Below are positions 3,793-64,000 of a stretch of 64,000 nt of DNA, in pieces (positions within the stretch are counted from its first letter, which is position 1; each line of letters starts with the position of its first letter). The translations under genes were made by a program, and so were the position numbers. The DNA is from an uncultured Eubacteriales bacterium (GTDB taxonomy: Bacteria; Bacillota; Clostridia; Christensenellales; CAG-138), in the NCBI GenBank assembly GCA_902761365.1, contig CACWJZ010000012.1, positions 1 to 64,000 on the forward strand, given 5' to 3'. The notes under the pieces are model-generated. The model saw nothing but the letters and a program-made list of their open reading frames with translations. It was not told the DNA's origin and made no database searches.

Positions 3793-3825
3793 GGACGGTT
3801 TATCAACAGGCAGGGTTCGTTTCAC

Positions 3826-3845
3826 GGGAGGGGCAAGCCCCTCCC
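3826..3845. repeat. REP-like palindrome, copy 1
   Basis: Perfect 9-bp stem GGGAGGGGC with a 2-base AA loop, followed by CTACGG. Read on the minus strand it begins CGTAGGGGAGGGGC. It is an inverted copy of the element at 3876-3895. Confidence 0.75.
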
Positions 3846-3875
3846 CTACGGGGAATTTGCCTTGCGGCGTTGTAG

Positions 3876-3895
3876 GGGACGGGCTTGCCCGTCCC
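3876..3895. repeat. REP-like palindrome, copy 2 (inverted)
   Basis: Perfect 9-bp stem GGGACGGGC with a TT loop, preceded by TGTAG. In the same orientation, copy 1 has G where this copy has C at stem position 5, and the partner base changes too, so pairing is kept. The pair lies between the carrier protein and MBOAT genes of one operon, where it may set mRNA stability or relative expression. Confidence 0.75.
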
Positions 3896-3897
3896 GT

Positions 3898-4131
3898 TTA
3901 TTCGTTTTCGATCCGCTGGATCAGGGCGAAGAGGGCCCGGGCGCTGTTGAAGTTTTCGGGCACGATGTCCACGGCCCCCAGCTCCACGTCGTAGGTTTCG
4001 CTGAGCTCCGCCACGATGGAGACCACATCGAAGGAGGTCAAAACCTTGTGGTCGATGAGGCCCTCGGCGGTTTCAAAGTCGATGTCGGGATGCAGGTCCC
4101 GGAGGATGTCCAAAAGCTGTGCAAAGGTCAT
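3898..4131 (-). CDS. acyl carrier protein (DltC-like)
   Basis: 77 residues, the standard carrier protein length. The phosphopantetheine-accepting Ser is expected at about residue 33 in the segment HKVLTSFDVVSIVAEL, which matches the LDSF motif of carrier proteins except for Thr in place of Asp before Ser. The start overlaps the stop of the adenylating enzyme by 4 bases, showing translational coupling. The adenylating enzyme would load an acyl or aminoacyl group here for delivery to the MBOAT protein. D-alanyl carrier protein is the nearest named family, but the cargo is not proven. Confidence 0.85.
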   Translation of the reverse strand: MTFAQLLDILRDLHPDIDFETAEGLIDHKVLTSFDVVSIVAELSETYDVELGAVDIVPENFNSARALFALIQRIENE

Positions 4132-5621
4132 TTTCCATACTCCTTTTGTTCGATGGCGCGCCGGTCGATCTTCCCGTTGGGGAGGTGCGGCAGTTCCGAG
4201 CGCTGCTCGGTCCGGCTGGGGGTCATGTACCCGGGCAGCTTCACCTTCAGGCCCACCACCAGGTCCCAGGGCTGAGCCGGGCCCGTGTAGAAAAGGTCGA
4301 TCCGCTGCCGGTCCGCCACGTACATGCAGACGGCCTCGTGGACCCCCTTGAGGCTCAAAGCGGCGGCTTCGATCTCGCCCAGCTCCACCCGGTGCCCCAT
4401 GTGCTTGATCTGCTGGTCCCGACGGCCCACGAAAATGAGGTCCCCGTTCTCGTCCAGGCGGCCGTGGTCGCCCGTGCGGTAGCAGAGCTCGCCGTGCTCC
4501 GGGTCCACGGGGTCCGGGATCAGGGCGGCGGCGGTGCGGACCGGGTCCTTATAGTAGCCTGCCATGACGCAGGGGCCTCCGATGACGATCTCGCCCTCCT
4601 TCGAGGGCTGCCCCTCGTCGTCCAGCAGGTACAACCTGGTGCCGGGGAAGGGCTTGCCCACGGGCACGGGCTTGGCCGGGTCCTGGGGCCCCGCCACGGG
4701 ATGATAGAAGCTCATGCCTGTGCACTCCGTGGCCCCGTAGAGCTGGAAAACGCGGGCGTCGGGGCAGGCCTTCTGCCAGGCGGTGAGCTGCTTCACGGGC
4801 AACACCTCGCTGCCGAAGCACATGAGCTTGAGATGCTCGGGCACCACGGCGTAGAAGGTGCGCAGCCGCGACACCAAGCTGAAGGCCGAAGACACCCAGC
4901 AGAGGGCGTTGATCTGGCGCTCGTTGATGTACTGGATCAGGGACACCGGGTTCACGAACAGCTCCCGGGGCAAGAGGTACGCCGTGGCACCCTTCACGAT
5001 CACGCCCAGAAGCTCTTTGAGCCAGGCGTCGAAGTAGAGGGGCGACTGGATGCCGAAGATCAAACTGTCGTCGAAGCTCAGCGCCTCGGGCAGGGTGGCC
5101 GCGTAGTCGAGAAGGCTGCTCTCCCGGATGCTGACCCCCTTGGGTTCCCCGGTGGAGCCGGAGGTGAAGACCACGTAGGCAAGGCCGTCCGCCGCGGATT
5201 CGTCCCGCAGCCGGTCAGGTCCGGGGAAGGCGGCCGCGCCGGTGTACAGCAAATGCTCCGCCGCCGGGCACAGGCCCTCCGCCGCGGTCAGGTTCTTCCG
5301 GTCCGTGAGGATGAACCGAGGGCACAGGGTGCGGACGATCCGATCAAGGCGCTCCCGGGGCATCTGCTCGTCCAGGGGCACGTAGAAGCAACCCGCCTCC
5401 AGCACGCCCAAAAAGGCGGCAATCTCCGGGGCGCCCCGCTCCATGAGCACGCCCACGGGCTCCGCCTTGGCGCCGCTGTGGCGGAGGCAGGCCCCTACGT
5501 TGGCCGCGGCCTGCCGCAGCTCCCGGAAGGTGAGCCCCTGCTCCCCGTCGGAGAAGGCCAGCTTGTCCGGCAGCAGGTCCGCCGTCTGATTCAAATAGGA
5601 TAAGAAGCTTTTCATATACAT
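4128..5621 (-). CDS. amino acid/acyl adenylating ligase (DltA-like)
   Basis: About 497 residues of the AMP-forming adenylation superfamily, the length of D-alanine:carrier protein ligase. The P-loop motif VFTSGSTGEPKG, LYGATECTG, the YRTGD motif (CYRTGDHGRLDENG) and the core GRRDQQIKHMGHRVELGEIE are all visible, with the late lysine in LPNGKIDRRAI. In known DltA enzymes the segment before LP reads FCGEELP, where Cys helps select D-alanine; here it reads CFGSEVLP, so a different residue faces the substrate. I chose ATG 5621 because AAGGA lies 6 bases upstream. It is coupled to the carrier protein gene. D-alanine is the default substrate guess, with reservation. Confidence 0.87.
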   Translation of the reverse strand: MYMKSFLSYLNQTADLLPDKLAFSDGEQGLTFRELRQAAANVGACLRHSGAKAEPVGVLMERGAPEIAAFLGVLEAGCFYVPLDEQMPRERLDRIVRTLCPRFILTDRKNLTAAEGLCPAAEHLLYTGAAAFPGPDRLRDESAADGLAYVVFTSGSTGEPKGVSIRESSLLDYAATLPEALSFDDSLIFGIQSPLYFDAWLKELLGVIVKGATAYLLPRELFVNPVSLIQYINERQINALCWVSSAFSLVSRLRTFYAVVPEHLKLMCFGSEVLPVKQLTAWQKACPDARVFQLYGATECTGMSFYHPVAGPQDPAKPVPVGKPFPGTRLYLLDDEGQPSKEGEIVIGGPCVMAGYYKDPVRTAAALIPDPVDPEHGELCYRTGDHGRLDENGDLIFVGRRDQQIKHMGHRVELGEIEAAALSLKGVHEAVCMYVADRQRIDLFYTGPAQPWDLVVGLKVKLPGYMTPSRTEQRSELPHLPNGKIDRRAIEQKEYGK

Positions 5622-5732
5622 CCCCATTCCTTTTGGTAGTTTTGCCGGTTTCGCTTGCGAAATTGCTGCGCCGATCCGCAGCAAAGGCACAAACTACGGT
5701 AGGGTGAAAACAACGTTTTTCACCCGGCCTCC

Positions 5733-6407
5733 TCACTGATCCACCGCCACCTGATACTCCATGAACGAGATCCGCCGGCCGTCGTCCCCGGCGTCCTTCA
5801 CCTGGACGACCAGCATGGTCTGACCGCTCCGATAGGTGTACACGCCATTCTCGTCCGTGCCGCCCAGCAGATCCAGGAGCTTTTCCTCCTCGTCGAAGAT
5901 CCTGAGTCCCTGGGGGATGGTCACGGTATCGTCCGTCACCATGATGACGGTGATCCGCGCTACGCCCTCCACCTCGTTCACCGTCAGCTGGACGCCGGGG
6001 TAAGCGTAGAACAGGTCCTTGCCGATGTAGGCGCAGCTGTCGGCCTCGAAGGCCTGCAACGGCTCGCCCAGGGCCGCAAGCACCGGCGCCGCCTCCATCA
6101 TGGGTTCGATGCGCACGCCCCGATATTCAAAGTACAGGTCCAGGGGGGCTTGGGGCGCCTCCCCCTCCTCCGGGGCGGGCGATTCCGCGGGAGCTGGGGC
6201 CGGCTCCTGCTCCGGAGCCTGTTCCGGGACGACCGGGGCGTCCGTGGGGCTCGCCGCCGGGGCGGCCGTGGGGGCCTTGGCTGCGTTGGGGTCCACATAG
6301 ACCACCCCCGGCTTCTGCGCCGGCGAGGTCTCTGTGGGGCCGCAGGCCGCCAGGGCCAGCAGCACCATGACGCTCAAAGCGAGCGCCGTCCATCTTGTAC
6401 CGTTCAT
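5733..6407 (-). CDS. secreted lipoprotein of unknown function
   Basis: 224 residues. A signal peptide ends in LALAAC (lipobox, Cys at about 22). A low-complexity Pro/Ala/Glu linker runs from about residue 40 to 88, then a roughly 130-residue globular C-terminal domain rich in beta strands begins at LDLYFEYRGVRIEPMM. Its start overlaps the end of the SGNH gene by 4 bases (ATGA), so the two are coupled. I do not recognise the C-terminal domain. Its position between the SGNH protein and the adenylating ligase points to a role at the outer membrane face in the same surface-modification pathway. Confidence 0.75.
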   Translation of the reverse strand: MNGTRWTALALSVMVLLALAACGPTETSPAQKPGVVYVDPNAAKAPTAAPAASPTDAPVVPEQAPEQEPAPAPAESPAPEEGEAPQAPLDLYFEYRGVRIEPMMEAAPVLAALGEPLQAFEADSCAYIGKDLFYAYPGVQLTVNEVEGVARITVIMVTDDTVTIPQGLRIFDEEEKLLDLLGGTDENGVYTYRSGQTMLVVQVKDAGDDGRRISFMEYQVAVDQ

Positions 6408-7483
6408 TCGTTCCCCTCCGTCCTTCTCTGTTTCTCCCGCTCGTATCGGCGGCCCAGATCCTCATACCGGGCGGCCGCCACCGGGTCCTGCCGCTGGTCC
6501 TCGATGAGCCCTCGCTCGCTCAAATATGCGCCCAGCCAGCGGGTGTACTTCTCCGCCCCGTAGACGTTCAGGTGGATGCCGCCATCGTAGGTGTCGGTGG
6601 CCCAGTCGATCCCCATATCGTCCGTCAGCTTCATGGCGTTGAGGTAGGTCACGCCCTGGTCCGCGGCGTAATCTTCGAGCCAAGCGTCCCATTCCTCGTA
6701 CCAGGCCGGATACAGGCAGGGGCCCTTCACCAAAATGAGGGCGATCCCCTTCTCCCGGCACAGGTCCACGATCCTCGTGAGATACTCTACCGGCTTTTCC
6801 CCAAAGTTCGCATCCTTCAGCAGGGGCGCCGCCGGCAGCCAGGTGAAGGGCACCTGCTCCGTGCGCATGAGGTAGCCGTGGTAGGTGAGCTCCGGCCCCG
6901 AGAACAGATACCGGGCGTCCTCCGCCGTGAGCTCGAAGATGCGGTCGTGATACCGGAGCAAAGGCACGTAGTAGCTGAGCTCGCTCTCCCCCTCCATGAG
7001 GGAGGCGCGGACCGCCTCCACCTTCTCCCGGCTCAGGCGCATGCCGTCCAAGGTCATGCGGTTGTAGGCCTCGTTCTGGGGCTCGGCGTACCGCAGGGAG
7101 CAGATGGACAGGACCACCGCTCGGGGCGTCTCAGTCTTCAGGGCCTCCCGCAGCAGGTAATAGCTCTGCCACATGAGCTGCTGGGCGCTGCCCCGGATGT
7201 AGCTGGTGGCGCCGTATTCCCTAAACAGGGTCACCGGGGAGAAGCTTTCGTATACCTCGCAGTCGCCGATGAACAGGACCTGGTGTCCCTCCTTGGCGTG
7301 GGCATACCAGTTCTCCACCATGGACCCCTCCAGGGTGATGCCGGAGGCGTATTTGGGCCGCACCAGCCGCCCGAGGCCCCAGATGAGGAGTCCCGTCAGC
7401 ACCAGCACGCACAGGGGCGCGAACCAATTTTTTCTCTTCTTGCCTTTCTCCATAGCCTCCATTCCCTGCGCTCCAGGCGCCAT
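6404..7483 (-). CDS. membrane-anchored SGNH-like protein (DltD-like position)
   Basis: About 359 residues with one N-terminal membrane segment (FAPLCVLVLTGLLIWGLG) and an extracellular SGNH-hydrolase-like domain. The first block reads VLFIGDCEVYESFSP: the residue where SGNH enzymes usually have the nucleophilic Ser is Cys. The last block DGGIHLNVYGAEKY has the expected Asp-x-x-His arrangement. In dlt and alginate acetylation systems a protein of this fold (DltD, AlgJ, AlgX) cooperates with the MBOAT protein to finish acyl transfer. ATG 7483 is chosen for the AAGGGA site 5-6 bases upstream. Confidence 0.8.
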   Translation of the reverse strand: MAPGAQGMEAMEKGKKRKNWFAPLCVLVLTGLLIWGLGRLVRPKYASGITLEGSMVENWYAHAKEGHQVLFIGDCEVYESFSPVTLFREYGATSYIRGSAQQLMWQSYYLLREALKTETPRAVVLSICSLRYAEPQNEAYNRMTLDGMRLSREKVEAVRASLMEGESELSYYVPLLRYHDRIFELTAEDARYLFSGPELTYHGYLMRTEQVPFTWLPAAPLLKDANFGEKPVEYLTRIVDLCREKGIALILVKGPCLYPAWYEEWDAWLEDYAADQGVTYLNAMKLTDDMGIDWATDTYDGGIHLNVYGAEKYTRWLGAYLSERGLIEDQRQDPVAAARYEDLGRRYEREKQRRTEGNE

Positions 7484-7494
7484 TTCATTCCCTT

Positions 7495-9573
7495 CTACCA
7501 ATCCCTCTGGAAGGGGACCGTGGGCGTGTCGGGATAGACCCTGTGGTCGTACCGCCAGAAGAAGTGGTACAAGCCGTTGGTTTCCTCCGTGGTGAGCATG
7601 AAGCACTCGAACCGGCGGCTGGGGCCGCTGTTCAGGGGGTCGAAGTGGTACCAGCCCGTGCCCACGTTCACCATGAGCCAATAGTGCCGATAGCCGCTGT
7701 CTCGTTGGATGAACATCACCTGAGCCCCCACGCCCTCCAGCAGGACGCGGGCCGCCGCGTCGTAGGTGAAGCAATCCCCGTGACGGCGGGTCAAGCCTCG
7801 CCAGGCCTCGTACTTCCAGTCCCGCTTGTTGGAGGTGTAGCCGAAGGTGAAGTTGTCGTGGACATATCGGAAGATGGCCCAGGCCTTCTGGCCCATGGTC
7901 ATGTCGTCGGTCACGATCTTCGAAAGGACCTCCTGCACCTTGGCCTGGAGCTTCTCCTCGGACACGGTGGGTTTGAGGAAGTAGAGCCGCACCTTCTTCT
8001 GGGCGGTGTTGCCCGCCCGGTCCGTAGCCGTGTAGGTCACGTTGTAACCGCCGGCCTGGTACATGTTGACGGCGGCATTGTCCACCGTGAGGGTCACGTC
8101 CTCCGGCTCATCGGCATTGTCCGTGACGGAGACCTGGGCAAAGTAGGCCACGGGCTCGCCCACGTACACGTACCGGTTGGTCGCGCCGAAGATCTTGGGC
8201 GGCTCCGTGTCCGGGACCATGTCCACCGTTCCCGAGATCTCGGTCCGGTTCCCCGCGGCGTCCACCGCCGCGATGGTCACGGGCTGGGGGCCCGCCTGGG
8301 ACCAGTCGGGCTCCGTCACGTAGGAAAGGGTGATAGCCGTCTCGTCCTCCGCCGTCGCCAGCAGGTCCCTGGGGGACTGGGGATGATCGAGATAGGCAGT
8401 GAGCGTCTTGAAAAACGACAGCCGGGGCGCGGTAGTATCCACCACGTACAGCCGCTGGATGCAGGGCTCCTCGTCCACCATGGCGTTCACATCGTAGCAG
8501 CCCGGGCTCCGGGGCACGAACCGGGCGATCTTCACCTCGCCCGAAAAGCTTTCGTCCAGGGCCTTCTGCCGATCGGCCACCGTAGGCCCCGCCACGCTCC
8601 GGCGGCTGGCCTCCCACACCAGGGGCTGCAGATCGGAGATGAGGACCGTGACCTGGCCCTTGGTCGTGTTGCCGCCTGCGTCCGTGACGGTGACGGTCAG
8701 CTGCTGATAGCCCTGCTTCTGCCAGTCGGGGGCGGGATCGAAGCCGTAGGTCAGGGCGGAAACGTCGCTGGCGCTCCCCACCAGGCTCTCCGGCGCCAGG
8801 GCCTGGCCCGTCCGGACATAGGGGATCGTGTTGACGAAGGAACACACCGGCGGCACCGTGTCGGTGACCGTGAGGGCCGTCTCGTACACCTGGCCTTGGG
8901 CCTCCACCTCGATGATGTGGACCCCGGGCACGGCGGTGTCCACGGTGGTCACGTCCGTCACGAACCGGCCCGTCATGGTGTCGGTGGGCAAAAAGGCCGT
9001 CAGGGGCGGCACCGCCTCCCCCGCCTCGATGGACAGCCGCGATACCGGCCCCAGGATGGTGCAGACGGTCTCGACGAAGGCCACGTTTCCCGACAGGTCC
9101 TCCAGCCGGATGACGACGGGCCACTCCCCCGCCTCATGGAAGGTCGGCGCCTGCTCGAAGGACACGCCCACCAGCTGGGCGTCCGTAAGGTCCTCGATGA
9201 ACCCGTCCGGCCCCAGCTCCTCGTCCACGCCCAACGTCCGGGCGACGCCTCGAGCCGTGGGGGCCGTGGTGTCCTGCTGGCGGACCAGGGCGATCCGGGG
9301 CCCGCCGCTGCCGGCAACCCGCACCACTGCGTCCCCGGGCCGGGTCCAGTCGATCTTGCGGGTGTCGAAGGCGTAGGACGCCTCGCCCCCGTCCTTCATC
9401 AGGGCGGAGGCCGGCGGGCAACTGCCCGTCATCTCCCACACCGTCACAGGGCGCACCTGCCGATACAGCAGGAAAAAGGCGCCGACGGGCAGCCCCACCA
9501 GGAGCAACAGCCCCTCCAGCAGGAGCCAGAACCAATGGACCCTATGCACTTGTGGCCGTTCCGTTTGCTCCAC
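7495..9573 (-). CDS. membrane-anchored transglutaminase-like protein with Ig-like domains
   Basis: 692 residues. A single N-terminal membrane helix (about 14-36) precedes several Ig-like/HYR-like beta domains, recognisable by repeated DTTAP, DTVPP, DTEPP and DAAGN/DRAGN motifs, from about 100 to 520. A transglutaminase-core domain ends the protein. The catalytic triad is intact by eye: Cys about 601 (GDCFTYDAAARVL), His about 630 (GYRHYWLMV) and Asp about 645 (YHFDPLNSG). It starts with GTG, supported by GGAGG 8 bases upstream. It is the first gene of the operon and probably acts on cell-wall or surface protein substrates; protease or transpeptidase chemistry is equally possible for this fold. 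Confidence 0.85.
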   Translation of the reverse strand: MEQTERPQVHRVHWFWLLLEGLLLLVGLPVGAFFLLYRQVRPVTVWEMTGSCPPASALMKDGGEASYAFDTRKIDWTRPGDAVVRVAGSGGPRIALVRQQDTTAPTARGVARTLGVDEELGPDGFIEDLTDAQLVGVSFEQAPTFHEAGEWPVVIRLEDLSGNVAFVETVCTILGPVSRLSIEAGEAVPPLTAFLPTDTMTGRFVTDVTTVDTAVPGVHIIEVEAQGQVYETALTVTDTVPPVCSFVNTIPYVRTGQALAPESLVGSASDVSALTYGFDPAPDWQKQGYQQLTVTVTDAGGNTTKGQVTVLISDLQPLVWEASRRSVAGPTVADRQKALDESFSGEVKIARFVPRSPGCYDVNAMVDEEPCIQRLYVVDTTAPRLSFFKTLTAYLDHPQSPRDLLATAEDETAITLSYVTEPDWSQAGPQPVTIAAVDAAGNRTEISGTVDMVPDTEPPKIFGATNRYVYVGEPVAYFAQVSVTDNADEPEDVTLTVDNAAVNMYQAGGYNVTYTATDRAGNTAQKKVRLYFLKPTVSEEKLQAKVQEVLSKIVTDDMTMGQKAWAIFRYVHDNFTFGYTSNKRDWKYEAWRGLTRRHGDCFTYDAAARVLLEGVGAQVMFIQRDSGYRHYWLMVNVGTGWYHFDPLNSGPSRRFECFMLTTEETNGLYHFFWRYDHRVYPDTPTVPFQRDW

Positions 9574-37841: not shown

Positions 37842-37900
37842 TACAATAATACTCCTTCCTTACTTTATAAAGATTTATGCAAAAACAAGGATCATTGCCC

Positions 37901-38305
37901 CTATCGTTTGTTGGACTGCCGCCAGATGTTCTGCTTCTCCGCGGCGGCGATGAGCTCCTCCCGGTAGGCCGGGTGCGCAAGATCCACCAGCATGGCCGCC
38001 CGCTCCCAGGTGGTCCGGCCCACCAGGTTGCGGACGCCGTACTCCGTGACCACGTAGTAGGCTTCGCTCCGGGGGGTGGTGACGATGTCGCCGCCGAAGT
38101 GGGGGACGATGCGGGAGTGCATCTGGCCCTTCTTGTCCGTAAAGGTGGAGGTGAGGCAGATGAAGGCCTTGCCGCCCTTGCTCTTCGCGGCGCCGGTCAT
38201 GAAGTCCAGCTGGCCGCCGGTGCCGGAGATATGCCGGGTGCCGGAGCTCTCCGAGGACACCTGGCCGTAGAGGTCCACGCTGATGCAGTTGTTGATGGCC
38301 ACCAT
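37901..38305 (-). pseudogene. out-of-frame 3' part of the CoA-transferase
   Basis: About 134 residues starting near NMVAINNCISVDLYGQ. It contains the ISGTGGQLDFMTGA glycine loop and the YYVVTEYGVRNL motif and joins seamlessly to the upstream frame if one 16-bp copy is removed. Confidence 0.8.
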
Positions 38306-39251
38306 GTTGTCGATGGCGCCGATGAGCTCCGGCGCCGATGAGCTCCGGGGAGTTCACGTATTCGAGGGGGCACACGGACAGGCCCGGGTTGTGATCCAGC
38401 CACGCATAGAGCTTCTTCGTGCCAAAGGCCATGCCGAACATGCCCTTGTTCCGGTGCATGTTGTTCCGGGCGTTGGTCAGCTTCCCGGCGGCATACAGGT
38501 CGTAGTAGGCGTCGGAGCAGAGCTCAGTGTGCATGCTTAGGTCTTTTAGATCGGAGTTGGCGATCATATTGCCCACGGAGTTGGGCATGGACCCGATGCC
38601 CAGCTGCAGGCAGGCCCCGTCCTGGATGTAGGGCACGATGCTGGCCGCGATCTTCTTATCGAGCTCGCTGGGCTCGGCGATGGGCAGCTCGAAGAGGGGC
38701 TCATGCTCCCCTTCCACCACGTAGTCCACCTGGGAGATGTGGACCACCTCGTCGAAGCCCCCGCAGAGCCAGGGCAGATGCTCGTTCACCTCCACGATGA
38801 CGATGTCCGCCTTGTCGATGATGCCCTTGCTGACGCCGGTGGAGCAGCTCAGGTTGAAATAGCCGTGCTTGTCCATGGGCGTGACGCTGACCATGGCCAC
38901 GTTGACGGTGAGGAAATGGGTGTAGTAGGGCACCACGTTTCGGAAGACCATGGGGATGAAGTTGCACAGGCCCCTATCGCAGAGGCTCCGCTCGTAGCCC
39001 GAGCAGTGCCAGGAGTTGTAGATGAAGTGCTCCCGGGTGGGGTCGTTCTCCACGGTCTCCAGCCGGTTGAAGATCAGGTTACCCCGGATCTTCACGTCGA
39101 AGAGCTCGTCCCGGCGACAGCTGAGGGCCCGATCCAGCAGGATGGGAAAGCCCAGCTGGGAGGTGTAGTCGATCCAGTCGCCGCTTTTCACACATTGAAC
39201 GGCTTGCTCCGGGGTCCGGAGCTTGCTTCTGTACTCACTGTAAAAGTCCAT
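37901..39251 (-). CDS. acetyl-CoA hydrolase/transferase family: butyryl-CoA:acetate CoA-transferase-like (frameshifted)
   Basis: When the 16-bp tandem duplication at 38315-38346 is ignored, the gene encodes about 445 residues, full length for the butyryl-CoA:acetate / 4-hydroxybutyrate CoA-transferase group. Conserved parts are LQLGIGSMPNSVGNMIA, MHTELCSDAYYDL (likely catalytic Glu about 243), ISGTGGQLDFMTGA and YYVVTEYGVRNL. The enzyme swaps CoA between acetate and butyryl-CoA or related acids in fermentation. As read, the frame breaks after NSPELIGA and runs on to a stop at 37875. AAGGAG precedes the ATG at 39251. Confidence 0.85.
38315..38346. repeat. 16-bp tandem duplication inside the CoA-transferase gene
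   Basis: GGCGCCGATGAGCTCC occurs twice without a gap (38315-38330 and 38331-38346). Because 16 is not a multiple of 3, it shifts the frame. With one copy the minus strand reads NSPELIGAIDNMVAINNC, which matches the family. Confidence 0.9.
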
Positions 39252-56605: not shown

Positions 56606-57934
56606 TTATGGGATGACGCGAACGATCTCAAAATCCACGTCGCCGCTGCCCTCATGGGCGGTGGTCTCCACGGCGACGCGCCCATCGTCCAGGAAATAGG
56701 CGTTTGAATCCTCGCCCACGATCATGCCCCGTACACCCGTCCCTGGATGGAAATAGGTGCCTTTACCTATCCGATAGCTGTCGGCGATCCCGTGGTCGAT
56801 GGGCTTCGAGCCGCCCCACTGAAGGACCGCGCCGTCCGCGCCGTAGAGCACGTAGGCGTCCGGATAATACACATAGTGCTCGTAGGGAGAGCTGAAATCC
56901 AGCTCAGAGTGGATCATCAGCGTCTGCCCATCCTTGACGAGCCGGGTGAACCAGCCCTCCAAGGCTGGATACTGCGCCTCCATGTCCTTGGTTTCCGTCC
57001 AGCCGTCCCGAACGAGGGCCAGGATCACCGAATCCAGGCTCTTGCCCGGGATATACGCAAGATCCCATTCTCCGTATCGCTGACGGCCTAAGGCAAACTC
57101 ATCTATATCCGTCAGTTTCAGGAGGTCGAAGACGGGGGAAAGGTCCAGGCACACCAGTTCATACCTCGTCCGATCATACCGATCCTCGTCCACCCGGGTC
57201 CGCTCTCCAAAGAAGAGCAGCGCCGGCGCTTCTCCGCTTTCATCCACCAGGGCAAAGCCGTTTTTGTTTCCAAGCAGCGCGCAAGGCCACGCCGTGCCGT
57301 CCGGCATGGTGAGGGCACCGGTCATTGCGCCATCCTCGCCCACGGTGATGCTAAGGTTAGCGTGGTGATGCTCTCCCATATCGAAGTAGCGGAACCACGC
57401 TGTGCCCGGCTCCAGGGGCCCAGAAAAAAAGTTGAAGTCGGGATATTGATACGGGGTATGCTTCTCCTTCGTCAGCACCACCCCATCCAGGCCCGCAAAG
57501 GTCAGTATACTCGCGGGATCGTCAACCGCCTTCAGTTCCACCGTGTCGCCTTCCGCCATGATCTTCACCGTTCCGGCGGGCAGGACGGCGGCGGGCTCCG
57601 TGTCGAAGGGTGTGCGGTACATATCCATTTTCAGAAGAAAACCGTCGCCGCCGGCCTCCAACGTAAATATCTCATTGGCGGTGAACAGATACGCCGCGCC
57701 GTCCTCATAGATCATGAGGCGGACGCCGGCGCCGTCTGACCACATGGTGTTTTTTTGATCTTTCAAGGACAGGGGCTTCGCAGCCTCTTTAGTAAGGGCG
57801 CTCCCCTCCTGCACCAGCGTCACGGACACGGGGAGCCGTTGAGGTTCGGCGATGGAGATGTTATTCTTCGCTTGGATCGCGACCAGGCCGCACAGCAGCA
57901 GCGCGGACAGTAAAAATGATGCCAGCTTCGTCAT
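56606..57934 (-). CDS. secreted protein of unknown function
   Basis: 442 residues. The N-terminal signal peptide (FLLSALLLCGLVAIQA) has no clear lipobox. The rest is rich in beta strands, aromatic and acidic residues, with two parts of similar flavour (LMIYEDGAAYLFTANEIF; FRYFDMGEHHHANLSITVGE; AYVLYGADGAVLQWGG). I do not recognise a known domain. AAAAGGAGGG precedes the ATG at 57934. It stands alone between a terminator and the radical SAM gene, which ends 74 bases upstream. Confidence 0.72.
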   Translation of the reverse strand: MTKLASFLLSALLLCGLVAIQAKNNISIAEPQRLPVSVTLVQEGSALTKEAAKPLSLKDQKNTMWSDGAGVRLMIYEDGAAYLFTANEIFTLEAGGDGFLLKMDMYRTPFDTEPAAVLPAGTVKIMAEGDTVELKAVDDPASILTFAGLDGVVLTKEKHTPYQYPDFNFFSGPLEPGTAWFRYFDMGEHHHANLSITVGEDGAMTGALTMPDGTAWPCALLGNKNGFALVDESGEAPALLFFGERTRVDEDRYDRTRYELVCLDLSPVFDLLKLTDIDEFALGRQRYGEWDLAYIPGKSLDSVILALVRDGWTETKDMEAQYPALEGWFTRLVKDGQTLMIHSELDFSSPYEHYVYYPDAYVLYGADGAVLQWGGSKPIDHGIADSYRIGKGTYFHPGTGVRGMIVGEDSNAYFLDDGRVAVETTAHEGSGDVDFEIVRVIP

Positions 57935-58008: not shown

Positions 58009-59088
58009 TTATTCCAACGTATCCTCTCGATAGTTCAACAAAAATCGGGCGCTTTTCTTCTCGTAGAGCCGGGCGGCCAAATCGTCCGCGATGGGGATGA
58101 GGATCCGCTCGTGCTCGCACTGGACGGGAGCCACGGTGTGCATGTCCCCGGTGAGGCTGAAATTGAGGCAGGCGCAATGGTGCCGGCAGCGGCCCTCGAT
58201 GGCGCAGCCCACGCAGTCCGGCTCCGGGACCAGGGAGGCAGTATAGACAGCCCTCTGTTTCGCCCTGTCCACGCCCGTGGACACATGGCCCATGCGGTAG
58301 TCCTCAAGATGCAAAAACTGGTTGCAGGGATAGATGCTCCCGTCCTCCGCCACAGAGGGCTGGCGCATGCCCAGCATGCACTCCAAGCAGGGCTTGTCGT
58401 TGAGGTATGCGGAGATCTTCACTAGGAAGGGCAGAAACAGCAGGGGCTGCCTGTCGTCGAACCGGGCCTCCATCAGGTCCGCCACAACCTCGTACTGTGC
58501 TTTTAGCACTGCCAGGGAATCATCGCCCCAGCCCGCGTTGGGCCGATAGTCGATGACGGAGTTGATGCGGGTGAACCCCCTGTCATAGAGCCATTTTACG
58601 GACTCGGCCATGCCGCCCACGGTGGCCGTGGTCACGGTCTGCAAGGCCACGGCATTGGGCTGATAGCGAAGGAGCAGGTCCACGATAGGCTCCAGCTTCG
58701 CCCGGGTGGGCCGCCCGTCCCGGGTGAGCCGCTGTTCGTCCTGCAAAAGGCCGTCGTGGCTCAAAGCGATCTCTAAATCGTGGTCGTTGGCGAACTTTAG
58801 GAAATCCTCGTCCAGGAGGGTGCCGTTGGTGGTCATCTTGAACCGGACGCCCACGCCCCGCTTGTCCGCTTCGGCCTTGGCATAGCGGCAGATCCTTTCC
58901 GCCAGGTCCCGCTCCAAAAGGGGCTCGCCGCCGAAGAGGGAGAAGCCGTTGGTTTTGTGCCCATAGGAAAAGACCAGGTCCATCGCCTTTTTGGCCGTGT
59001 CCCAGGTCATATGATCCCTGCAATGGGTCTCGTAGCAATAGCGACAGCGGAGGTTGCAGTCCGCCGTGAGGTGAAGGGTCAGGTTCAT
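58009..59088 (-). CDS. radical SAM/SPASM enzyme, putative peptide maturase
   Basis: 359 residues. The radical SAM cluster motif CNLRCRYC is at residues 11-18 and the S-adenosylmethionine glycine motif at FSLFGGEPLLE. The C-terminal SPASM-like region carries many cysteines (KPCLECMLG, YPCNQF, CVGCAIEGRCRHHCACL), enough for two auxiliary clusters. Enzymes with this build modify sulfatases or ribosomal peptides. It begins 4 bases after a gene for a 108-residue peptide, so that peptide is the likely substrate. No sulfatase is nearby. Confidence 0.9.
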   Translation of the reverse strand: MNLTLHLTADCNLRCRYCYETHCRDHMTWDTAKKAMDLVFSYGHKTNGFSLFGGEPLLERDLAERICRYAKAEADKRGVGVRFKMTTNGTLLDEDFLKFANDHDLEIALSHDGLLQDEQRLTRDGRPTRAKLEPIVDLLLRYQPNAVALQTVTTATVGGMAESVKWLYDRGFTRINSVIDYRPNAGWGDDSLAVLKAQYEVVADLMEARFDDRQPLLFLPFLVKISAYLNDKPCLECMLGMRQPSVAEDGSIYPCNQFLHLEDYRMGHVSTGVDRAKQRAVYTASLVPEPDCVGCAIEGRCRHHCACLNFSLTGDMHTVAPVQCEHERILIPIADDLAARLYEKKSARFLLNYREDTLE

Positions 59089-59092
59089 GGGC

Positions 59093-59419
59093 TCAGGCTT
59101 CGGGGGTGGCGGTGGGCATAAGCAGCACGCCGGTGGTCCTCAGCGGCACCGCCGGGGTGGGGTCCGGGATGGCCACGTCCCCGTCCAGGACCAGCTCCTC
59201 CGTGGGCTCGGGGATGGCCACCTCCCCGTCCGTGACCAGCACCTCCTCAGGCGGCTCCGTCACCGCAACCATGCCCTCGGTCTGGAGCTCCGGCAGCTTC
59301 GGCTGCCGACAGCCCGTGACGCCGCCTACGGCCACCAGGGCCGCCGCGGTCAGGGCCGCGCCCCGCAGGACTTTCTTCGGATAGGTGGGCCGATAGCCGG
59401 TCAGCTGTTGCAGTTTCAT
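59093..59419 (-). CDS. small lipoprotein-like repeat peptide, putative radical SAM substrate
   Basis: 108 residues. The leader MKLQQLTGYRPTYPKKVLRG is followed by a hydrophobic stretch (21-35) and VTGC (Cys 37), a lipobox. The mature part is acidic and Pro-rich with two near-identical units, TDGEVAIPEPT (63-73) and LDGDVAIPDPT (78-88). Apart from the lipobox there is no Cys. AAGGAGG lies before the ATG at 59419; the radical SAM gene follows after 4 bases. I do not know a named family for it; a surface lipoprotein carrying a modified repeat is my reading. Confidence 0.75.
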   Translation of the reverse strand: MKLQQLTGYRPTYPKKVLRGAALTAAALVAVGGVTGCRQPKLPELQTEGMVAVTEPPEEVLVTDGEVAIPEPTEELVLDGDVAIPDPTPAVPLRTTGVLLMPTATPEA

Positions 59420-59504
59420 ATGCGCCTCCTTGGGTCCTTTTGCCCATAACACCTGGAAACGCGGGGTAAAGTTGCAACTCAATAGCAGGATGCCGGTTTT
59501 TTCT

Positions 59505-59650: not shown

Positions 59651-60763
59651 TTACCGCTGGGTGGCGCTGCCGCGGCCCAGCTTCTTGCCGCTCTTCTTGT
59701 CGAAGAGGATCAGGCCCTGGCCGTGGAATTCGAAGCGCATGGGGCTGTTGGCCTTGTAGTCCACGCTGCCGAACTCCACGCTGGTGACCAGCTGGTCGCC
59801 CATGGTCATCTGGACCGTGGTCTCCATGCCGGCGGGCAGGGCCGCGTAGACCTTGCCCTCCATGCCGCCGCTGCCCAGGCGAATGAACTCGGGCCGGACG
59901 CCCAGGACCACGTCCTCGCCCTCGGGCTTGCCCAGAGGCGCGTCGCTCTCGAAGAGGAAGCTGCGGCCCAGGACAGTCACCTCGGCATGGGTCTCATCCA
60001 GGACCCTCGCCGTGCCGGGCAGGAAGTTCATGGTCGGGTTGCCCACGAAGTCGGCCACGAACAGGTTGGCCGGGTTGTTGTAGACCTCCAGAGGCGGATC
60101 GTACTGCTGCAGCACGCCGTCCTTCATAAGGCAGATGCGGGTGGCCAGGGTCATGGCCTCCAACTGGTCGTGGGTCACGTAGACGAAGGTAGAGTCCGTC
60201 TCCGCGTGGAGGCGCTTGAGCTCCGTCCGCATCTCCAGACGAAGCTTGGCGTCCAGGTTGGACAAGGGCTCGTCCATGAACAGCACCTTGGGCTCCGGCG
60301 CCAGGGTCCGGGCGATGGCCACACGCTGCTGCTGACCGCCGGAGAGCTCGCTGGGATAGCGCTTCTCGAACTGCTCGATCTTCAGCATGGCCAGCATCTC
60401 GCTCACCCGCTGGCGGATCCTGTCCTTGGGCCACTTCAGGTTCTCCAGGCCGAAGGAGATGTTCTGATACACCGTCATGTGGGGCCAGAGAGCGTAGTTC
60501 TGGAAGAGGAACCCGATGTCGCGCTTGGCGGGAGAGATGTTGATGTTCTTCTCGGAGTCGAACACCACCGTGTCGCCGATGGTGATGCGGCCCTCCGTGG
60601 GGGTCTCGAGCCCCGCGATCTGGCGCAGAGTCGTGGTCTTGCCGCAGCCGGAGGGGCCCAGCAGGGTGATGAATTCGCGGTCCTCGATGACCATGTTTAG
60701 ATCGTCCACCGCGACGAACTTGTCAAAACGTTTCGTGACGTGTTCCAATATGATTTTCGGCAT
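59651..60763 (-). CDS. ABC transporter ATP-binding protein (PotA/FbpC type)
   Basis: 370 residues: an ATPase domain (Walker A GPSGCGKTT, signature LSGGQQQRVAIARTLA, Walker B VLFMDEPLSNLD, switch VTHDQLEA) and a C-terminal TOBE/OB-fold regulatory domain (about 240-360). This length and domain set is that of ATPases for polyamines, ferric iron, 2-aminoethylphosphonate and sugars. It is coupled to a fused double permease and a binding protein upstream. Confidence 0.92.
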   Translation of the reverse strand: MPKIILEHVTKRFDKFVAVDDLNMVIEDREFITLLGPSGCGKTTTLRQIAGLETPTEGRITIGDTVVFDSEKNINISPAKRDIGFLFQNYALWPHMTVYQNISFGLENLKWPKDRIRQRVSEMLAMLKIEQFEKRYPSELSGGQQQRVAIARTLAPEPKVLFMDEPLSNLDAKLRLEMRTELKRLHAETDSTFVYVTHDQLEAMTLATRICLMKDGVLQQYDPPLEVYNNPANLFVADFVGNPTMNFLPGTARVLDETHAEVTVLGRSFLFESDAPLGKPEGEDVVLGVRPEFIRLGSGGMEGKVYAALPAGMETTVQMTMGDQLVTSVEFGSVDYKANSPMRFEFHGQGLILFDKKSGKKLGRGSATQR

Positions 60764-60768
60764 TTTCC

Positions 60769-62601
60769 TTAACCTCCTACACCTTTGTCGATGCTTGCGC
60801 CGGTGAGCTTGTTGACGGCGAACTGGATGACCAGCACAAAGATGATGATCAGCAGGTTGATCGCGTTGCTCGCCTGATTGAGACCGGTGCGGCTGTATTC
60901 CTGCAGGACCGTGGTGACCAGCGTGGTGTAGCTGGCGGCCAGCAGGACGAATAGGCTCATCTCACGCATGCAGGAGATGAACGGGAGCAGATAACCGCTT
61001 ATGAAGCTGGACTTCTGGATGGGGAACAGGACCCGCGTCATGCGCTTCCACCAGGGCACGCCGATGACGATGGCGGCCTCCTCGATCTCCCCGGAGAGCT
61101 GCAGCATGGCGCTGGTGCCCGTGCGGGAAGCAAAGGGCATGAACTTGATGGAGCCCACCAGTAGCAACAGGATGAACGAGCCGTCCAGCCACGTGAAGCC
61201 CTTGGTATACGACAGTGCCAGATACACGGCGCCGAAGCTCATGGACGGGATGAGGTACGGCAAAAACGCCAGGTCGGAGACCAGCGTGGCGGCCTTGCTG
61301 CCCCGCTTGCGGGCCACAGCGTAGCCGATGAGGATGCCGAAGCTGCCCGCCACCAGCGATACCAGGACGCTCAGCAGCAAGCTTCGGCCCATGGCCTTCC
61401 ACATGGTGGGACTCATCAAAATGCCGATGGTGTCGCCCTTGTTGCTGCCCTCAAAGACCTCCCGGGAGAGCCAGTAGCGCAGGGTGAAGCTGGACCAGTC
61501 GCCGGGGACCTCCAGCAGACTCTCCATGGCGAAGGAGGCCAGGGGCATGATGGCGAAGAAGGCCACGATGATGACCAGGATCACCGCGATGACCTTCCGG
61601 GCCTTCCCCAGCTTGACCAGGGACACCTGGCCGGATTTGCCGGTGACGGTAGTGAAGCTCTTGCGCTTGCCGGTGAACCAGTTGTTCAGCGTCAGGATCC
61701 CGATGGAGAACATCATCAGCACGATGGCGACCACGTAGCCCTGTCCCTTGGTGAAGCCCGTGTTGATCAGGTTCCGCATCTGGACGGAGATGGACACGAA
61801 GTTGTTGCCGGAGTTGATGGAGCTCTTGTTGAGGAAGAAGGGGACGGTGAAGGAGCTGATGGAGCTGGAGAAGACCAGCAGCACCGTGCTCACCAGGGCG
61901 GGCAGGACGATGGGCAGCGTGACCTTGTAGAGGATCTTGAAACGGCTGGCCTTGAGGACCGTGGCCGCCTCCTCCAGATTGGCGTCCATGTTCCGGAGGA
62001 TGCCGCCGATGAGGATGTAGGCAAAGGGCGCGTAGTGGAGCCCCAAGCTCATGGCGCAGGGCACCAGGCCGTAGACCATGGACTCCGGCACGCAGATGCC
62101 GGTGACGGACTGCAGAATGCCCATGCCCGCGTTGATCTCAGTGTTCTTGAAGAAGTTTTCCCAGAACATGGCCATGGACCAGCTGGGCATGATGTAGGGG
62201 AAGACGAAGACGGTGGAGATGAATTTTTTCGCCGGCAGGTCGGAACGGGTGATGAACCAGGCCACCACGCCGCCGAACAGAACGGCGACGACGCAGGCCA
62301 GGGCGGCCATCAGCGCCGAGCCGCCCAGGGGCGCCCAGAACTTGGTGCTGGCGTAGTTGTATTCCTTGCTGGTCAGAAGCTCGATCCAGTGATGGAACGT
62401 CCAGGAACCATCCTCCACGCCGTCCTGATCGATCCAGATGGCCTCCTGATTGCCGTTGACCTTGAACGAGCCGATGAGCAGGGTGCTCAGCGGCAGGACG
62501 ACGGTCAGCAGCAGCACGATCAGGAAGATCACGGTGATCACGTTGGCCGGCTTGGAGAAATAGGCCCTGAGGCTGTTGCCCAGCGTTTTTTTATTGCGCA
62601 T
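60769..62601 (-). CDS. fused double-domain ABC transporter permease (FbpB/PhnU-V type)
   Basis: 610 residues, about 12 membrane segments, with two BPD_transp_1 domains in one chain. The coupling loops are NLEEAATVLKASRFKILYKV (first half) and GEIEEAAIVIGVPWWKRMTR (second half). Such fusions are typical of ferric-iron and 2-aminoethylphosphonate importers. It lies between the ATPase (5-base gap) and the binding protein. Confidence 0.92.
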   Translation of the reverse strand: MRNKKTLGNSLRAYFSKPANVITVIFLIVLLLTVVLPLSTLLIGSFKVNGNQEAIWIDQDGVEDGSWTFHHWIELLTSKEYNYASTKFWAPLGGSALMAALACVVAVLFGGVVAWFITRSDLPAKKFISTVFVFPYIMPSWSMAMFWENFFKNTEINAGMGILQSVTGICVPESMVYGLVPCAMSLGLHYAPFAYILIGGILRNMDANLEEAATVLKASRFKILYKVTLPIVLPALVSTVLLVFSSSISSFTVPFFLNKSSINSGNNFVSISVQMRNLINTGFTKGQGYVVAIVLMMFSIGILTLNNWFTGKRKSFTTVTGKSGQVSLVKLGKARKVIAVILVIIVAFFAIMPLASFAMESLLEVPGDWSSFTLRYWLSREVFEGSNKGDTIGILMSPTMWKAMGRSLLLSVLVSLVAGSFGILIGYAVARKRGSKAATLVSDLAFLPYLIPSMSFGAVYLALSYTKGFTWLDGSFILLLLVGSIKFMPFASRTGTSAMLQLSGEIEEAAIVIGVPWWKRMTRVLFPIQKSSFISGYLLPFISCMREMSLFVLLAASYTTLVTTVLQEYSRTGLNQASNAINLLIIIFVLVIQFAVNKLTGASIDKGVGG

Positions 62602-62646
62602 AAGCGGGCCTCCTTCTTACGAAAGCGTTCTGATTTTCAAATGGGA

Positions 62647-62672
62647 CAGGGGAGGGCCGCAGCCCTCCCCTG
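62647..62672 (-). terminator. intra-operon hairpin between binding protein and permease
   Basis: Perfect 11-bp stem (CAGGGGAGGGC) closing a CGCA loop; no T-run follows on the minus strand. It probably protects the 3' end of the binding-protein mRNA and raises its yield relative to the permease. Confidence 0.7.
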
Positions 62673-62707
62673 CAGTGCAGTTGGTGCTTTATTCGTGGCG
62701 AGGGAGC

Positions 62708-63961
62708 TTATTTGCCCGCCATCTGCATGTTGATGAACTTGACCGCAGAGCGATAGGCGGTGTCGAGGTAGTCCACGTCCTCCACGATGCACTGCTCTTT
62801 CCACACGGCCAGCGCCGGGTCGCCTTCCACGGAGGCGATGTTCTGGTTGCTGCTGTAGTAGCCCAGGATGCCGCCCCAGCCGGCGTTGAAGCCTTCCTCA
62901 GAGAGGAGGTAGTGGATGAACAGGCAGGAGGTGTAGGGCAGCTGCGCGGTCTCGGGGATCAGCATCCACATGTTGTAGACGAAGCCGTCGAAGCCCTCCA
63001 CGTCGTTGTTCCAGCCAGCGGCGGTGACGGTCTTCTTGTAGTACTGATCGGTGTCCTTGTAGTCCTCCTTGTAGTACTCGTAATCCTTCAGCTTGCAGAG
63101 GCCGGCGAAGATGATGCGGCCGTCGTCGGCGTAGTTGTTGATGGCCTTGACTTCCTTGGAGTCGGAGGAATGCCAGTAGCCCACGTTCTTGATGAACTCG
63201 GCCACGAACTTGTAGCCGATGTTGTTGTAGCTCACCTCATCCTCAGCGGGGTTGTAGTCCTTGCCGAAGTAGCTCTTGTAGGCCGCGGTCAGCTTCTCGC
63301 AGGCGGGGTCGCTGGTGAGCATGATGAGGAAGTTCATGTTGATGTCCTCACCCAGGGGGCTCTGGTAGGAGACGTTGTGCAGGCCCTTGAGGGCGACGCC
63401 GTCCACACCGGTCATCTGCCAGACGTTCTTGAGCTGGTCAGCGCCGACCTTGGTGTTGTCATACATGAAGATCTTGTTGAAGGTGACGCCCACTAGGGGG
63501 TTCTGATCGGACTCGGCGATGTTGTACTCATCGCCCTGGGGCACGTAGCTGAGCAGGAAGCCGGTGTCCAGCATGGCGTTCTTCAGGAAGGACGCATCCT
63601 GGATCATGACGAAGTCGGCGATATACTTGCCAGCCTTCTGAGCGGCGACCAGCTTAGGCTGATACTCGCTGCCCTTCTTGCTGTTGTAGGCCACGCGGCC
63701 GGCGGCGAAGGGATACTTCTCTTCAAACTTGGCCAGGGCCTTCTTGACGCCGGAGGTCAGGGAGTCGGCATTGAAGGTCAGGGTGGGGTTGTCCGCCAGC
63801 TCCTTCTGGGCGGCGGCTTCCAGCTCCGCGGCGGTCATGCCCTCGGCAGCCTTGATGGCCTCGGCCACGGTGCTGCCTTCGGCTTTGGCCGTGCCGGTGC
63901 CGATGACCAGGATGGACAGCACCATGGTGAGGGCCAACATCAGAGAGAGGATACGTTTCAT
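62708..63961 (-). CDS. ABC transporter extracellular solute-binding protein
   Basis: About 417 residues. The signal peptide (MKRILSLMLALTMVLSILVI, then GTGTAKAEG) lacks a lipobox, unlike the other binding proteins in the window. The mature part resembles the SBP_bac_1/8 group (ALAKFEEKYPFAAGRVAYNS, QPKLVAAQKAGKYIADFVMI, FIHYLLSEEGFNAGWGGILG). With the fused permease and PotA-like ATPase this suggests iron(III), a phosphonate or a polyamine as solute. ATG 63961 leaves workable spacing to AAAGGAGA; ATG 63970 is too close. Confidence 0.88.
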   Translation of the reverse strand: MKRILSLMLALTMVLSILVIGTGTAKAEGSTVAEAIKAAEGMTAAELEAAAQKELADNPTLTFNADSLTSGVKKALAKFEEKYPFAAGRVAYNSKKGSEYQPKLVAAQKAGKYIADFVMIQDASFLKNAMLDTGFLLSYVPQGDEYNIAESDQNPLVGVTFNKIFMYDNTKVGADQLKNVWQMTGVDGVALKGLHNVSYQSPLGEDINMNFLIMLTSDPACEKLTAAYKSYFGKDYNPAEDEVSYNNIGYKFVAEFIKNVGYWHSSDSKEVKAINNYADDGRIIFAGLCKLKDYEYYKEDYKDTDQYYKKTVTAAGWNNDVEGFDGFVYNMWMLIPETAQLPYTSCLFIHYLLSEEGFNAGWGGILGYYSSNQNIASVEGDPALAVWKEQCIVEDVDYLDTAYRSAVKFINMQMAGK

Positions 63962-64000
63962 GCTTTTCATTCTCCTTTTCTTATTTAGGTTATCTTATCG

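Follow-up and report, generated by a model that had tools for sequence, protein, structure and literature searches.

A radical SAM/SPASM enzyme encoded beside a leader-bearing lipoprotein peptide: a candidate RiPP-lipoprotein system in uncultured Clostridia

INTRODUCTION

Does a radical S-adenosylmethionine (SAM) enzyme modify the small lipoprotein-like peptide that is encoded just ahead of it? This question is raised by a gene pair at positions 58009 to 59419 of a 64,000-nucleotide stretch of DNA (the window) from an uncultured Eubacteriales bacterium. The window is part of contig CACWJZ010000012.1 (C12 below) of assembly GCA_902761365.1, which is 69% complete and comprises 2.3 Mb. An earlier note on this DNA had suggested that the pair might be a new class of ribosomally synthesized and posttranslationally modified peptide (RiPP). 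Here, we compare the locus with related genomes, curated protein families, and solved structures, and we propose, at a probability of roughly 0.7, that the pair constitutes a radical SAM-dependent RiPP-lipoprotein system.

RESULTS

Layout of the gene pair

The open reading frames bear out the arrangement described in the earlier note: a 108-amino-acid peptide gene comes first and the radical SAM gene second, on the same strand, with 4 nucleotides between them (bases 59089 to 59092). On reading the sequence, we saw a Shine-Dalgarno sequence for the peptide gene and none ahead of the enzyme start. The features of the pair are as follows.

59425..59431, minus strand, Shine-Dalgarno sequence AAGGAGG of the peptide gene (by reading of the sequence)
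59093..59419, minus strand, putative precursor (lipoprotein peptide) gene, 108 amino acids, open reading frame with an ATG start
59372..59419, minus strand, peptide leader, residues 1 to 16, with the Y-x-P-x-Y-P motif inside it at 59378-59395
59321..59362, minus strand, hydrophobic h-region of the peptide's signal peptide (by reading of the sequence)
59309..59320, minus strand, lipobox VTGC (Cys37) of the peptide
59252..59287, minus strand, core unit 1, LQTEGMVAVTEP, weaker (by reading)
59204..59239, minus strand, core unit 2, LVTDGEVAIPEP
59159..59194, minus strand, core unit 3, LVLDGDVAIPDP
59108..59143, minus strand, core unit 4, LRTTGVLLMPTA, weaker (by reading)
58009..59088, minus strand, radical SAM/SPASM enzyme gene, 359 amino acids
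59035..59058, minus strand, CxxxCxxC motif of the SAM cluster, enzyme residues 11 to 18
58117..58380, minus strand, SPASM auxiliary-cluster region, C237 to C324

The peptide begins with MKLQQLTGYRPTYPKK, runs through a hydrophobic stretch to VTGC, whose Cys37 is its only cysteine, and ends in an acidic tail (net charge, −11). Four related units can be read in this tail. Two of them are the strong DG(E/D)VAIP copies that had been recognized before, and the two weaker ones, LQTEGMVAVTEP and LRTTGVLLMPTA, are additional to that count.

A leader-bearing gene accompanies the enzyme at nearly all assessable loci of its clade

Relatives of the enzyme were searched for with a 12-row enzyme profile, with matches listed at an E value of ≤1e-45. 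Clade members scored at least 350 bits (one broken copy scored 255), and everything else listed, mostly SCIFF-like frames of 430 to 530 amino acids, scored at most 193 bits. Matches with less than 34% identity or fewer than 250 aligned amino acids (L151, L152, and SCIFF-like enzymes) were not counted as family. Among 396 genomes of the order, the only clade matches were in the family to which the window genome belongs (10 genomes, counting that one); the 391 genomes of the class held 15 clade genomes besides our own, counting the broken copy, and the 398 genomes of the phylum held 3 besides our own, two of them outside the class. We collected 61 distinct enzyme loci, which are 36 to 100% identical to the window enzyme, and the two out-of-class loci bring the set to 63, own included. 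The relatives' records describe uncultured Clostridia or related metagenome-assembled genomes, and the titles of several of them refer to the gut of cattle, goats, sheep, or reindeer. In L019, L038, and L069, the enzyme frame contains an internal stop.

One or more leader-bearing partner genes lie beside the enzyme at 61 of the 62 assessable loci, which is the conservation expected of a RiPP precursor gene and its modifying enzyme; the earlier note had held that homologs regularly found without the peptide would speak against its reading, and this is not what the relatives look like. The one assessable locus that truly lacks a partner is L061. The 63rd locus, L044, has no upstream DNA, although its genome carries a peptide of this kind that is truncated where a different contig ends. 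A leader pattern combined with a start-codon rule found the partner at 56 of the 61 collected loci. Three further partners, all counted among the 61, were identified by eye: L030 (a partial gene at a contig start), L065, and L142 (a C-terminal fragment at a contig start). The 56-locus pattern is a strict pattern widened with spellings seen by eye afterwards, and the control was run with the narrower one: the strict pattern matched 52 of 61 loci on the plus strand versus 7 of 2,518 minus-strand control open reading frames, and 4 of its 9 misses are genes that overlap the enzyme and were skipped by that count. The nearest leader match ends −4 to +30 nucleotides from the enzyme start in 50 of the 56 pattern-found loci; in L138 and L066, the leader gene is downstream of the enzyme. 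The two out-of-class genomes served as a blind check, made with a pattern slightly unlike that of the 56-locus count, and both have a leader lipoprotein directly upstream of the enzyme.

The co-occurrence check suggested in the earlier note was also run. A 39-position leader profile, built from 13 chosen leaders and cut at an E value of ≤1e-8, matched 39 of 103 family genomes. Leader and enzyme occurred together in 38 genomes, the enzyme only in 5, the leader only in 1, and neither in 59 (Fisher p = 1.5e-21; the value is descriptive only, because it is not corrected for relatedness among the genomes and the E cut was chosen with the matches already in view). The five enzyme-only genomes (G010, G011, G015, G058, and G101) have divergent or truncated partners that were seen directly, and in the leader-only genome, G075, the peptide runs off a contig end. 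At an E limit of 0.01, 45 genomes match and the counts become 39, 4, 6, and 54; the six extra genomes are G010, a true but weak match, and five genomes without the enzyme that have partial signal-peptide matches. In our own genome, the profile matches once, at the window peptide gene.

The short partners combine a leader, a lipobox, and a repeat-bearing tail

To describe the peptides, we took 72 pattern matches shorter than 165 amino acids and dropped three of them and one duplicate, leaving 68 distinct short peptides. The three were a spurious 55-amino-acid match at L066 and shortened copies at L062 (67 amino acids) and L146 (80 amino acids); at the latter two loci, the shortened leader lipoprotein is an upstream copy that adjoins a full-length one. 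The leader, mostly Y-x-P-x-Y-P, falls within the signal peptide of the lipoprotein, in its n-region, and Y9, P11, Y13, and P14 are invariant in the 13 chosen leaders, with variants elsewhere. By a loose pattern, 64 of the 68 peptides have a signal-peptidase II lipobox, a mark of the precursors of DAG-RiPPs, the RiPP-lipoprotein hybrids discussed below; of the four without it, L053 is a chance match. All 64 have G or A directly before the lipobox cysteine, under a pattern that also allowed S and C.

The tails are long and variable (mean, 72 amino acids; range, 39 to 113; mean charge, −16), and the part before the tail is near constant (36.7 ± 2.9 amino acids). Each of the 64 lipobox-type tails has 1 to 6 hydrophobic-x-G sites, for a total of 185, versus 105 ± 8 in 500 shuffles (maximum, 128). 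A count of residue pairs made without a preset motif was led by L+2G, L+6V, G+3A, L+4G, G+2V, and G+4I/V (z, 11.8 to 20.6). Together, these pairs describe a unit L-x-[LT]-x-G-x-[VI]-x-[VI], and the sequence around it is acidic and rich in proline. Identity is higher in the leader (0.59) than in the tail (0.49) over 325 pairs of 26 peptides, in keeping with the conserved leader and variable core of a RiPP precursor. The relatives thus support the pairing, the leader with its variable repeat tail, and the lipobox. The claim that the core is free of cysteine holds for the window peptide and for 44 of the 64 related tails; the other 20 have one or two cysteines. A Pfam and NCBIfam scan of 10 peptides or lipoproteins, nine other partners included, gave no match above cut-off.

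Some loci carry more than one such gene. In genus g22, there are often two paralogs in tandem, and in genus g205, which belongs to another family, there are up to three short lipoproteins with the leader spelling NYKKPLYA and similar units. Three paralogs located upstream of the enzyme, L052, L035, and L068, have recognizable leaders (HTPAYP, HAPDYP, and YKTEYP, respectively) and neither a lipobox nor a cysteine; the core unit is full in L035 and partial in L052 and L068. Thus, lipidation looks separable from the combination of leader and unit, and a cysteine thioether cannot be the general rule. Among natural sequences, these paralogs argue most strongly that the enzyme would require the leader together with the unit.

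More distant enzymes adjoin larger lipoproteins

Many enzymes of 36 to 43% identity, from several families, adjoin lipoproteins of 200 to 320 amino acids (one of 576) with a similar leader. Most of these have an added LLKxxPxRW segment, plus a lipobox and a conserved domain, which is Gly-rich at its start, ahead of (F/L)(S/T)E(E/Q/D)EA, and closes with a sequence similar to LRxQVRDFxxWLxxxGII. Segments of L146 such as VVLAGDAYVTLTFAEDEG resemble the short units, which we offer as a suggestion only. L052 and L035 also carry a (T)xEEALAILRSPA stretch similar to the domain of the large partners.

These large partners, which have a conserved domain and not a short core, raise the possibility that the lipoprotein assists the enzyme as a partner or regulates it, for example as a scaffold or activator, and that the true substrate is another protein. 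We consider this unlikely: repeat units in several copies, as many as three paralogs for each enzyme, and differing lengths are what one expects of substrates; paralogs that lack a lipobox keep the leader; and among the neighbors there is no third gene, shared by different lineages, that would make a plausible target.

In a tree of the enzymes, the large and short partner types require 2 changes, and there may have been one origin; for this count, L044 (no partner seen) and L143 (192 amino acids) were set as short, and L144 was left out because of its broken frame. Since the outgroup is very distant, it is an inference only that the large type is ancestral. A broader account would place the window in an unnamed, widespread radical SAM pathway of Clostridia and relatives that modifies surface lipoproteins through a leader within the signal peptide; domain-bearing lipoproteins would be the ancestral substrates, short repeat peptides like ours would be a reduced and multiplied form, and the role would be a general one in the cell envelope and not a natural product. 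We regard this account as possible but on balance doubtful.

The enzyme has a complete SPASM cysteine set and scores below the cut-offs of the NCBIfam models listed

The enzyme is a radical SAM protein by Pfam PF04055 (60 bits versus a cut-off of 29.5). The CxxxCxxC cysteines are kept in 62 of 62 aligned clade rows. The cysteine-rich tail that had been called SPASM-like contains C237, C255, C292, C295, C301, C305, and C324, which we take to be the seven positions of the SPASM motif; these are cysteine in 58 to 61 of 62 aligned rows, and all seven are present in the window enzyme. In a subclade comprising L061, L062, and L137, CxxxCxxC is intact, and three of the seven SPASM cysteines (C237, C255, and C305) as well as C307 are lost. 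SPASM enzymes with all seven cysteines are associated with oxidative reactions; thus, the full set suggests an oxidative step.

Against NCBIfam, 77 models match the enzyme at an E value of ≤1, and none of the 25 listed reaches its cut-off; therefore, we adopt no family name. The best-scoring model among those listed is the PapB ranthipeptide maturase (NF047865; 183.8 bits, cut-off 340, residues 3 to 317 of 359), followed by nif11-type and then SCIFF maturases (TIGR03974; 143.2 bits, cut-off 425). PapB links Cys to Asp or Glu (PMC9413430). Each lipobox-type precursor has one conserved cysteine, so our enzyme could be a ranthipeptide-type maturase for which this cysteine is the thioether donor to a nearby Asp or Glu and not a lipid site. 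The score is far below the cut-off, however, and G or A always precedes that cysteine in the lipobox set, the window peptide has neither CX3D/E nor a core cysteine, and the three leader-bearing paralogs described above have no cysteine at all. Hence, we judge this quite improbable.

We modeled the enzyme with AlphaFold2 (pLDDT 88.9). The nearest solved folds are CteB (5why; TM score, 0.82), the anaerobic sulfatase maturase anSME (0.81), and ChlB (0.78), whose structure was solved together with the leader of its precursor; a sequence search against solved structures also placed CteB first (5wgg; E = 4.3e-35). One explanation prompted by the anSME match is that this is a sulfatase-maturase-like enzyme that acts elsewhere and lies beside the peptide gene incidentally. 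The anaerobic sulfatase maturase model (TIGR03942) scores only 69.3 bits versus a cut-off of 349.45, and incidental adjacency is at odds with a leader-bearing gene adjacent or near at nearly all assessable loci. The earlier note had also named sulfatase neighbors as contrary evidence: no sulfatase turned up among the four flanking proteins of the window that were scanned, and the relatives' neighbors were read by eye. We give this explanation almost no weight. A different chemistry is suggested by the units, which alternate hydrophobic residues around Gly, the kind of stretch on which known peptide epimerases act; the enzyme might then epimerize unit residues instead of cross-linking them. The predicted fold resembles that of the solved epimerase EpeE only poorly (TM score, 0.46 to 0.48), and the full set of SPASM cysteines, with its association with oxidative reactions, also argues against epimerization, which we rate as a minor possibility.

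The alignment with CteB begins at residue 3 of our enzyme and residue 99 of CteB, such that about 96 N-terminal residues are absent from our enzyme. This is the part in which the RiPP recognition element (RRE) of CteB sits. A genome scan found no PqqD-type RRE on C12. Two PqqD-type RREs lie elsewhere in the genome (G000:C31:9812-11067 and G000:C9:98188-99446), each about 0.8 kb or less from a radical SAM match, and probably belong to other RiPP systems.

Neighboring genes and export machinery

Lgt is present in all 12 genus genomes and LspA in 10 of them, and our own genome has both, so the general lipoprotein machinery that DAG-RiPPs use is encoded in the genome. Around the 61 loci, 358 open reading frames of at least 90 amino acids, antisense frames included, fell into 216 clusters, which were named by reading translations. 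Nineteen clusters are represented at 4 or more loci, 13 reach across at least two lineages, and none spans more than 3; none of the neighbors shared by different lineages is a plausible member of a gene cluster with the pair. The earlier note had seen no transporter or protease nearby. This stands in that none is shared across lineages as a cluster gene, and it fails for the window itself, in which a same-strand ABC-type operon lies near the pair at 59651-63970; this operon does not recur beside the relatives' loci.

Other neighbors, named by reading, were a FeoAB-like transporter near L139, L140, and L148 (opposite strand), a dipeptidase-like gene 1.5 to 2.5 kb from five g23 loci (L057, L063, L071, L074, and L077; opposite strand), and an MFS-like transporter, which lies upstream at L067 and L068, the two g10 loci. 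A 442-amino-acid gene downstream of the pair (56606-57934, minus strand) was considered as a third component and dropped, as among the loci compared it occurs only in the nearest relative (L039/L010, 93%); its product looks exported and has no Pfam or NCBIfam match at an E value of ≤1. Elsewhere in the window, DltB-, DltA-, and DltD-like genes (teichoic acid D-alanylation), named by reading translations, lie at 2230-7774 (minus strand), and an acetyl-CoA hydrolase/transferase-like open reading frame lies at 37875-39251 (minus strand), the last third of which reads out of frame, suggesting a frameshift.

DISCUSSION

In the pathway we propose, the enzyme would bind the Y-x-P-x-Y-P leader motif, which lies in the signal peptide's n-region, before the precursor leaves the cytosol, and it would then oxidize the L-x-[LT]-x-G-x-[VI]-x-[VI] units. 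The product of this step may be a cross-link within each unit that does not involve cysteine, at about −2 Da per unit; this is the least certain step, and we place the cross-link at roughly even odds, with desaturation and epimerization as alternatives. The modified precursor would pass through Sec, be diacylated by Lgt, and be cut by LspA before the lipobox cysteine. That single cut would remove leader and signal together; no dedicated protease or exporter would be needed, and the modified acidic peptide would probably stay anchored at the surface.

Several observations weigh against this proposal. Because the enzyme is without the RRE region of CteB and there is no PqqD-type RRE on the contig, leader binding is not accounted for. 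The leader motif is variable (YKVNYP, YDAPKIP, and YKKPLYA), and the lipobox has A or T at position −3 in 33 of 64 peptides. The contrast between leader and tail identity is moderate, and in L040/L043, the only one of four gene pairs with enough gap-free change for both parts, nonsynonymous divergence (dN) is equal in the tail (0.07; synonymous divergence [dS], 0.21) and in the leader plus h-region (0.07; dS, 0.32). L061, with an intact CxxxCxxC and a degenerate SPASM region, has no leader gene in the 4 kb flanking it on each side; L062 and L137 are degenerate in the same way, yet have a partner. L151 (G528, about 4000-5460; 31% identity, broken frame, excluded from the count) has only a disrupted leader-like gene; just downstream of this enzyme, one frame has a start that resembles the leader, and a different frame encodes a hydrophobic stretch bearing a unit similar to those of the cores. 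The FeoAB-, dipeptidase-, and MFS-like genes near some loci and the ABC-type operon beside the window pair may mean that there is an exporter or protease specific to a lineage. Finally, the chemistry of the modification is a guess.

If the radical SAM-dependent RiPP-lipoprotein reading is correct, it extends such hybrids from multinuclear nonheme iron-dependent oxidative enzymes (MNIOs) to radical SAM enzymes, and one short signal peptide would act both as the enzyme's leader and as the lipid-anchoring signal. The family is bounded, with 61 partnered enzyme loci, and its natural variants (no lipobox, no cysteine, 1 to 6 hydrophobic-x-G sites, and large partners) can separate leader, core, and export functions and help reveal a chemistry that is not generally a cysteine thioether.

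Comparison with known systems

The statement in the earlier note that no nameable class resembles this pair does not hold. DAG-RiPPs (DybA/DybH and NedA/NedBC) have been defined and mined for MNIO enzymes (Chen et al. 2025 preprint, PMC12636315), and a curated radical SAM model named for a lipoprotein partner exists (rSAM_w_lipo, TIGR04133). The authors of that preprint judge leader-independent pathways most likely, which differs from a leader within the signal peptide; they name autoinducing peptides as another possible group, and a ChrH-like MNIO subfamily reads a C-terminal motif. The main text of the preprint never uses the term "radical SAM." Lipoprotein signals are also predicted for about 16% of Buf2 bufferins (PMC12452194). 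Among the papers listed by open-literature searches for radical SAM enzymes with a lipobox, lipoprotein RiPPs, or DAG-RiPPs, there was no radical SAM case, and we could not find a description of the enzyme/peptide pair as a family. The RiPP-lipoprotein concept is known, from MNIOs; among the papers listed, we found no radical SAM version that has its leader inside the signal peptide.

Four known systems are closest. DAG-RiPPs share with our pair a RiPP-type enzyme, a signal-peptidase II precursor, and, as proposed here, cytosolic modification followed by the general lipoprotein pathway; their enzymes are MNIOs, whereas ours is a radical SAM enzyme with a conserved leader inside the signal peptide. 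The rSAM_w_lipo model (cut-off 425) has three matches at an E value of ≤1 in our genome but none on C12, and it is not among the 25 of 77 NCBIfam models listed for the enzyme. The PapB family provides the best-scoring curated model listed, but the enzyme falls under its cut-off and the window peptide has no Cys-X3-Asp/Glu. Finally, CteB, the SCIFF maturase, is the best match in both sequence and fold among solved structures; it differs in its N-terminal region of about 96 residues, which is absent here, and its family model scores our enzyme far below the cut-off.
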